44,240 nt of DNA from the NCBI GenBank assembly GCA_014360065.1, contig JACIYF010000011.1, positions 1-44,240 of the forward strand. The letters are read 5' to 3'. The position numbers were made by a program, and so were the translations under genes. Origin of the DNA: Clostridia bacterium. GTDB taxonomy: Bacteria > Bacillota > DSM-521 > Neomoorellales > JACIYF01. Within the stretch, counting starts at the first letter, position 1. Every line of letters starts with the position of its first letter. Positions 6,042-33,364 of the stretch are shown here, piece by piece. The notes under the pieces were generated by a model, which did not search any database, had not been told where the DNA came from, and saw only the letters and a list, made by a program, of their open reading frames with translations.

Positions 6042-6256
6042 ATTTATCCTCCTCCAGCTCGCCTGATCTACAGGCCTTCTCCGCGGAAATTCCCCGCTTG
6101 GCCAAGGCTGAGATTCCGCCCGACCAAGCGGCAACCTCCCGCTTCATCGCCCTACTCATCATCCTTAACCCTTGGCCCGAGCTTGGGCCTAGCGCTCCCT
6201 CGCGGGGCCAGCAGCAAGCCGGCACCCACTTTACGCCTAGGCCCTTGGGCCCCCGG

Positions 6257-32084: not shown

Positions 32085-32182
32085 TCTTTATTGTCATCTC
32101 CCTTCATTCTCAGTCGCTTTGCCGACATTTCACAAGTAACGTTAGCCACGCTACAATAGGACATAAAACCATAAGCTGCAGT

Positions 32183-32611
32183 TTACAGTACTTTTAGGGT
32201 TGTCTGGCCTTCCATCACCTTCTCTCCACTGGCGGTATAACAGTTGGCATTAAAGTAAATCTCATGGCGCAGAACGTCTTTGCCGATCACCTCCAAAGAT
32301 GCGGTTACTGTCTCCCCGGGAAGCACCGGTTTAAGAGCCGTCAAGGCGTAACGGTACGATACCCCTCCCGGAGGCGGCACATGGGCCGTCATCTTGGCCA
32401 TCACCGCCGATACAATACCGACAAGCAGGGCGCTGGGAACCACCATTCCCCTTTCCCCGGCCCGCTTGGCGGCCACCTCATTGATATATAGGGGATTTAA
32501 GTCCCCGCTAATAGTTAGGAAATTGGCCACATCGGCCTGGGTGATGGTCTTGGTATGCTCTTCTCTGTGCCCCATGGGCAGGGCCTCCATGCGTTGCGCT
32601 CGTTCATCCAT
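32183..32611 (-). CDS. MaoC-like hot-dog protein with catalytic His replaced, paralog 3
   Basis: 142 residues from the ATG at 32611 (GGGGAGGAG 7 nt upstream; the frame is open to 32677). It has the MaoC fold and the motif TISGDLNPLYINEVAAKR. Asp is kept (D37), but the usual His five residues on is Tyr (Y42). A classical hydratase mechanism is therefore doubtful; it may bind CoA esters, act as a thioesterase or dehydratase of altered chemistry, or form a heteromer with MaoC 2 (32926-33330). It lies between the GC-rich element and the importer genes. Confidence 0.82.
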   Translation of the reverse strand: MDERAQRMEALPMGHREEHTKTITQADVANFLTISGDLNPLYINEVAAKRAGERGMVVPSALLVGIVSAVMAKMTAHVPPPGGVSYRYALTALKPVLPGETVTASLEVIGKDVLRHEIYFNANCYTASGEKVMEGQTTLKVL

Positions 32612-32629
32612 GTGGTTTCTCCTCCCCAA

Positions 32630-32910
32630 ACGCCACTCGATGCTTCCGAAACACTTCCCATGCCGGGGCGCTGGCACCGGCGAAAGACTGGCCTCGCCAG
32701 CGATCCGTATGGCTCCCCCTCACCCTTCGGCGGGGTTCCCGGCCAATTCGACCTCCTGTCTCAAGAGGCCGGCCTCGGACGTCCTGTCCTCGGCCCCGCC
32801 TCCGAGCTCGGTCTCGTCAACGGCTCGCACGGCTCGCCCAAAGTCGCCTTACGCCAGCATCCCCGGCCATTTTCATACTTCTTTCGGATGCACCCGCCGC
32901 TCATCACCTT
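32630..32910. other. GC-rich, highly foldable intergenic block, possible structured RNA or repeat
   Basis: The 314-nt gap between MaoC 2 and MaoC 3 has no credible gene. On the minus strand it holds many nested complements: GGCGGGG with CCCCGCC, GGCCTC with GAGGTC around a 9-nt loop, CTGGC-GAG-GCCAG, the palindrome CCGAGCTCGG, and a direct repeat CGAGCCGTGCGAGCCG. Composition is far from its neighbours. It reads like an interspersed repeat or structured RNA of thermophilic Firmicutes, but I cannot name one. Confidence 0.5.
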
Positions 32911-32925
32911 TTGTCTCAAATCGGC

Positions 32926-33330
32926 TCACAGAACCTGGGCAACGGTTTCACCCTTAAGGATTCTTACTCCCGACTGGTTGACGCAATTGACCGTGAGCCT
33001 GTACCTGCCCTCCCCCAGCGCTTCTTCAGTCGTCACCTCCGTAGTCACGGTGTCTCCAAGCTTAATGGGGCCGGTAAACTTGACATCGTACCCCACCGGA
33101 TAGCCCGTAACTCCGGCCAGGGCCAGCAATCTGGAAACGGCTGCCGAAACCAACCCTACTGAATAAGCCCCGTGGGCGATGCGCCCGCCAAACTGAGTTT
33201 TGCGGGCAAACTCTTCATTGACGTGAACGTCATAGAAGTCTCCAGTAATGCCAGCAAACAGGTTGACGTCGCTCTCGGTGACGGTCTTGGTAAACTGGCC
33301 TTTACTCCCTATAGCTAATTCCTGCGCCAT
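32926..33330 (-). CDS. MaoC-like (R)-specific enoyl-CoA hydratase, paralog 2
   Basis: 134 residues. ATG at 33330 (MAQELAIGSKGQF) with GGAGG 8 nt upstream is preferred over ATGs at 33345 and 33363. The motif GITGDFYDVHVNEEFARK keeps the catalytic Asp (D31) and His (H36). Closely related to MaoC 1 (26282-26713), including YVFAGITGDF-like and GARIAHGAY-like segments. Module A member, 35 nt after CoA-transferase 3. Confidence 0.88.
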   Translation of the reverse strand: MAQELAIGSKGQFTKTVTESDVNLFAGITGDFYDVHVNEEFARKTQFGGRIAHGAYSVGLVSAAVSRLLALAGVTGYPVGYDVKFTGPIKLGDTVTTEVTTEEALGEGRYRLTVNCVNQSGVRILKGETVAQVL

Positions 33331-33364
33331 TGCCGATGCCTCCATCCGCCTATTACTTCGCATC

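Follow-up and report, generated by a model that had tools for sequence, protein, structure and literature searches.

What occupies the 314 nt between two MaoC-like genes of one operon in a Clostridia bacterium, where most neighbouring genes almost touch? A preliminary description of the window (the whole stretch of 44,240 nt that was analysed) had suggested a structured RNA, an interspersed repeat or a remnant of a mobile element at positions 32612-32925. This gap exactly fills the space between two minus-strand genes, both assigned as MaoC-like by Pfam PF01575, and it is indeed GC-rich (64% GC compared with 56% in the window; 3.0% of 314-nt stretches are equally GC-rich). The complementary pairs that had been named are all present, with GGCGGGG/CCCCGCC at 32729-32735 and 32794-32800, as is the tandem CGAGCCG repeat at 32821-32836. 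The view that no open reading frame explains the gap holds in part: plus-strand frames of 182 and 187 aa cross it, but neither has a Pfam match, and the downstream gene, if started at a GTG, would reach into it, although its most likely start is the ATG at 32611. Likewise, most neighbouring gaps are short or overlapping, but the one at 32085-32182 measures 98 nt and exceeds the 10-40 nt given for them. A decayed coding gene is scarcely credible as the origin of the block, since the two open frames that span it lack Pfam matches and the same non-coding structure recurs in copies at many loci.

The 256-nt element and its copies

The gap itself proved to be the wrong unit. The true unit covers 256 of its 314 nt and is flanked by an 8-bp duplication on each side, as follows.

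32183-32611, minus strand: downstream MaoC-like gene; the likely ATG start at 32611 is the 28th base past the element
32619-32625, minus strand: Shine-Dalgarno (SD) motif GGAGGAG of the downstream MaoC-like gene, just past the element and its duplication
32631-32638: target duplication CGCCACTC, 7/8 identical to the opposite side
32639-32651, no strand: terminal inverted repeat GATGCTTCCGAAA
32639-32894, minus strand: complete 256-nt element copy, 5'-GGTGCATCC...GGAAGCATC-3' in the RNA sense, which is the operon sense; boundaries from 29 full copies
32882-32894, no strand: terminal inverted repeat TTTCGGATGCACC
32895-32902: target duplication CGCCGCTC
32926-33363, minus strand: upstream MaoC-like gene

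A genome-wide BLASTN search returned 47 matches in the element's own genome, nearly all of them strong and some being pieces of one interrupted copy, so that the block is an interspersed repeat and not a single copy; in all, copies number about fifty. Alignment of the copies gives a unit length of about 256 nt, and the window copy is 97.7% identical to the genome consensus. Full copies bear inverted repeats at both ends (GGTGCWTCCGAAA / TTTCGGAAGCATC). Among the 29 full copies with both ends, which come from two genomes, the 8-bp duplications match at 7 or more of the 8 positions in 18, compared with 0.9% of shuffled pairs, and the remaining 11 fall below this level. The block is a non-autonomous transposable element (MITE). 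Being multi-copy and transposon-derived, it bears out both the interspersed-repeat and the mobile-element proposals, and the outcomes named beforehand as speaking against them (a single copy, no conserved structure, a decayed gene) were not found. We are highly confident of the mobile element, its ends, its landing site and the conserved structured module described below.

Like other bacterial MITEs, the element is short and ORF-less, has inverted ends and a duplication of constant length, exists in many copies and has one end in common with an autonomous insertion sequence (IS) of the same genome. It departs from them in two ways: its landing site, immediately before SD motifs, and its orientation hardly vary, and it has a structured module that is also found in MITEs with other ends. 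We also observed a second small palindromic element, CCCAGCACTCAAC...GTTGAGTGCTGGG, of about 95-110 bp, that has inserted into copies of the first, using a small number of positions repeatedly (L062, L063, L065, L068, L072, L073, L135, L136, L144 and L147; L038 in Moorella; L278 and L283 of the Desulfofundulus type). Very short derivatives that keep the ends of the main element but lack the module likewise lie just upstream of SD motifs (L150 1934-1982, L136 2575-2733, L044 and L045).

Landing site and candidate parent

In the sense of the downstream gene, the order is element, 8-bp duplication, SD motif and start codon. At 47 of 48 own-genome ends an SD motif lies just beyond, in a single orientation throughout (this set omits L023 and L066, whose ends are unclear), and the landing site of the element and the IS is about 13 nt upstream of the motif. 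A count of 52 ends (48 MITE-family and 4 IS, still including the wrongly placed Moorella IS L221) yielded an SD-like 5-mer within about 30 nt at 51, and a start codon with an ORF of at least 40 codons at 46, the start lying at a mean of 26.8 nt (sd 2.6). Under stricter limits, SD, start codon and ORF of at least 40 codons were found together at 37/48 MITE-family ends and at all three IS ends tested, L221 being omitted here as a mini copy adjoins it. Controls passed the same SD-plus-start test at 3.4% of random positions and at 0/20 opposite flanks. Only 6 of 14 ends passed in G014, the other genome that harbours this element. Distances from the insertion point to the SD and to the start codon are about equally constant, and the position upstream of an SD may reflect targeting of a DNA motif or selection following random insertion.

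A coherent regulon downstream of the copies was considered and rejected. The 20 downstream proteins scanned have mixed functions (for example AIR carboxylase, ALAD, UvrA, RadC, GatC, B3/4 domain and rubredoxin) and belong to unrelated housekeeping genes. As a separate observation, six Moorella copies (L085, L092, L098, L102, L112 and L120) run straight into the SD, with GTTATTTTC followed by GGAGGA, and carry a further SD-plus-ATGG motif at the opposite end, as would be expected from a duplication of the SD itself.

Scanning with the element ends located an insertion sequence, L138, that begins GATGCTTCCGAAACAAATTTCC. Its left end GATGCTTCCGAAAC is common to the element and to the IS copies L138 and L140, the latter a second IS left end located at a contig edge, while the right end GGTCCTTCCGAATC is less alike. 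Because the left end and the landing site are shared with the element, this IS is the likely source of the transposase. The main frame of L138 carries a DDE_Tnp_IS240 domain (35.1 bits; cut-off 27), and its best NCBIfam match is IS6, at 51.2 bits and thus under the equivalog cut-off of 125. Given this domain and the weak similarity to IS6, we call the candidate parent IS6-like and do not place it in the IS6 family. Its transposase is divided over two frames, the preceding one being a zinc ribbon with a Pfam match just under the cut-off, and the L138 copy has no target duplication of its own. IS6 elements duplicate 8 bp of their target, and the MITE shares this length; in contrast, the parent candidate lies far under the equivalog cut-off, has a separate N-terminal zinc-ribbon frame and lands upstream of SD motifs. 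Judged from the shared left end and landing site, an IS6-like DDE transposase very probably mobilised the element. Two Moorella genomes, G010 and G020, contain related remnants whose left end is similar, and parent-IS matches at E ≤1e-10 were found only in 4 of 61 genomes, the own genome counted. ISL3 was rejected as a parent, PF01610 giving no own-genome match over its cut-off. Another IS, with ends GAGACCTCA... and possibly of another family, was seen at L227 (about 940-1700) and L061, with a weak ISL3 match in L061.

A structured module carried between transposon ends

The suggestion of a structured element is well founded. On either strand the gap folds more stably than every one of 100 dinucleotide shuffles (z -4.7 on the minus and -3.5 on the plus strand), and covariation across genera is strong. 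The Rfam scan proposed as a check gave no gathering-score match for the block (best sub-threshold score 14.5 bits, E 0.9) or for the module, which sets aside a known RNA family. Elsewhere in the window, an S10-Clostridia ribosomal leader was found at 6059-6155, with a score barely over the gathering cut-off. The structured part consists of the following features.

32700-32837, minus strand: outer module helix, in which GCGAGCCGT at 32829-32837, alternatively the tandem repeat of it at 32820-32828, pairs with ACGGATCGC at 32700-32708
32723-32806, minus strand: 84-nt module core, covariance model R1
32729-32800, minus strand: central helix GGCGGGG/CCCCGCC enclosing both hairpins, with covariation
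32741-32770, minus strand: core hairpin 2, GGCCTCTTGAGACAGGAGGTCGAATTGGCC, loop CAGGAGG, GGA at 32754-32756
32773-32793, minus strand: core hairpin 1, CCGAGGACAGGACGTCCGAGG, loop CAGGACG, GGA at 32782-32784

Three alignments carry the evidence for these helices. Alignment A1, from which model R1 was built, holds 48 core sequences: 194 BLAST places gave 166 that were long enough and not due to chance, 107 of them unique and 48 kept below 93% identity, with 11 chance loci of other phyla excluded. It contains 68 double-changed cells, as against 15.7 ± 4.2 when shuffled and 3 to 18 when slid. Alignment A3 comprises 31 diverse loci, chosen sources and no random sample, and was fitted to the model and so leans towards it; 15 of its 20 pairs changed on both sides, with 105 double-changed cells against 27.1 ± 4.1 in shuffles (30 distinct sequences) and far fewer when slid. 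An unfitted MAFFT alignment of 19 longer stretches gave a similar picture, 24 of 32 pairs being double-changed, with 107 such cells against 30.1 ± 4.8 in shuffles and again far fewer when slid. This last alignment includes the outer helix, which covaries across the 19 sequences and is almost wholly different between genera (the own-genome row aligned only partly). Of the cells counted in A3, 591/618 are Watson-Crick paired, and tandem GA mismatches persist in the module.

Of 398 phylum genomes searched with the covariance model, 75 contain the module core, as do 54 of 267 genera, often with at least 11 scored copies per genome. In relatives only the interior of the element recurs, and the outer arms are different ones. 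A module of about 200 nt has been kept across the 54 sampled genera while transposon ends were exchanged. In genome G266, 10 of 11 module copies lie between direct repeats scoring 11-22, whereas 110 mismatched pairs reach at most 9; in this test, L266 and L267 had poorly located ends. These repeats are mostly terminator-like hairpins, and the module ends there are CAGACTGTAGACAAAC and TTTGTCAACAAACTGA. A second genome of the same genus holds IS1182 transposase copies with nearly the same ends in similar palindromes. According to the available excerpt of PMC4923244, IS1272 (IS1182 family) targets terminators and the family targets palindromes. The G266 ends thus resemble the IS1182 family (e.g. 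IS1272/TnSha1) in matching the IS1182 copies of their genus and in sitting at palindromic terminators, but this association is seen only in the G266 genus and not in the window genome. Moreover, IS1272 is reported to delete part of the terminator, whereas in G266 the terminator is duplicated.

A third end type, TATCCCCAG...GTGGGGATA, surrounds module copies in Desulfofundulus-type genomes. We observed this third type, read as ATCCCCA...TGGGGAT, around the same module at L279, L281, L282, L248 and L245, in genomes of the Desulfofundulus type and others. Of the 53 Moorella copies, 10 are next to a gene start on their other side alone. In genus g91, the module was seen as a single copy at one syntenic locus in three species (L250, L251 and L252), inverted in L251; we read the neighbours of this locus as genes for a TPR protein and a glycerate kinase. 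The module is kept while ends and target habits change and is a cargo common to several transposon families. It is not simply a transposase site, because the ends differ between lineages while the module stays. The MITE kind itself is known; neither a structured cargo with CsrA-like loops shared by MITEs nor a target upstream of SD motifs was found described in the open-licence PMC full text searched.

What the module may do

Both core hairpin loops keep the pattern C-A(N)GGAN-G while their stems vary. GGA is present in loop 1 in 29/31 and in loop 2 in 30/31 of the A3 sequences (both loops in 28, at least one in all 31), and in 39/48 and 44/48, respectively, in A1, as read from its loop table. 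The loops thus qualify as candidate CsrA sites, with A-N-GGA or AGGA in at least two hairpin loops, both in 28/31. A third GGA site (CATACGGATCG) does not count as a loop, since it forms the 3' strand of an outer helix. CsrA sites have a spacing preference, and the two GGA of the window lie 28 nt apart, a distance that a CsrA dimer can bridge. We know of no CsrB-like RNA in these bacteria. The available excerpt of PMC6692469 gives (A/U)CANGGANG(U/A) as the CsrA consensus and AnGGA in hairpin loops; the module shares with CsrB/CsrC/RsmZ-type sRNAs and CsrA leader sites the GGA in hairpin loops, the A-N-GGA context and two sites 28 nt apart. It differs from those RNAs in being mobile, repeated and found in Clostridia, with only two such loops per unit.

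The own genome encodes csrA, and the gene is present in 70/75 module genomes and in 215/323 others (285/398 in total; p 7e-7, statistics that ignore phylogeny), leaving 5/75 module genomes without it. Flagellin shows a weaker association (71/75 against 251/323; p 3e-4, again ignoring phylogeny). Within the 322 flagellin-positive genomes, the module occurs in 70/280 with csrA and in 1/42 without it (p 2.5e-4, also without regard to phylogeny). Because the element's orientation is the sense direction of the operon, it would become part of the leader transcript of the second MaoC-like gene, and its insertion would leave the SD of that gene intact. The two C-A(N)GGAN-G hairpins could then bind one CsrA dimer, and such putative binding might tie the adjacent mRNA to CsrA, or dozens of copies might titrate it. 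In the window, some 130 to 160 nt separate the GGA loops from the SD, too far for direct SD blocking, and the mixed housekeeping genes downstream, which form no regulon, count against a role of CsrA. That the module functions as an RNA through putative CsrA binding is, of the functions considered, the likeliest, and a real possibility, if a little short of even. The fuller proposal is more tentative: a deeply conserved structured RNA may be a mobile CsrA ligand, moved between IS6-like, IS1182-like and at least one other type of ends and landing before ribosome-binding sites, so that dozens of mRNAs would gain a double CsrA site or the copies would form a CsrA sponge.

Other explanations deserve comparison with this one. 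The mixed downstream genes, together with the numerous decayed, truncated or interrupted copies, are what an ordinary MITE might show if it had no selected function and its structure were inherited from one ancestor. However, common descent alone would not produce compensatory changes on both sides of 24/32 pairs in different genera while the loops stay constant; this takes selection or templated repair, and we consider such a passive element quite unlikely. A stronger contender, which we hold possible without favouring it, is that the structure is maintained at the DNA level: single strands or cruciforms folded from the module would help the element to move or be repaired by hairpin templating, and the RNA would be inert. 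In true RNA helices G-U is expected to be clearly commoner than A-C. Here, the counts of G-U and A-C are 25 and 22 in A1, 8 and 6 in A3, and 9 and 6 in the outer helices; no selection on the RNA strand is apparent from them, and it could be as DNA that the pairs are preserved. The near-perfect Watson-Crick pairing, the presence of the module in copies that look mobile and differ in their type of transposon end, and the inversion of the single g91 copy at the same locus (L250 compared with L251) also fit this explanation. Yet the module is kept despite differing ends, and templated repair leaves unexplained both the C-A(N)GGAN-G pattern in the two loops and the persistence of the tandem GA mismatches.

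A structured leader RNA with another partner, for example one whose SD-like loops act as a ribosome standby site or decoy, appears unlikely. Loops such as CAGGAGG do resemble an SD, and the own-genome element sits just upstream of a real one, but the G266 copies are located in terminators and the 10 Moorella copies have their gene start on the other side only. For the same reasons, lying before an SD is no general trait of the module. Taken as a whole, the block is probably best explained as a MITE whose structured cargo also occurs in other transposon families, the proposed RNA role included.

A transposon that lands about 26 nt before start codons in one orientation has a notable target specificity even without CsrA, and a structured module kept while different MITEs exchange their ends is an unusual shared cargo. 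The covariance model makes the questions of CsrA binding and target specificity directly testable. If the module does bind CsrA, Clostridia would gain a candidate antagonist of the CsrB type, and transposition could rewire or buffer a global regulon.
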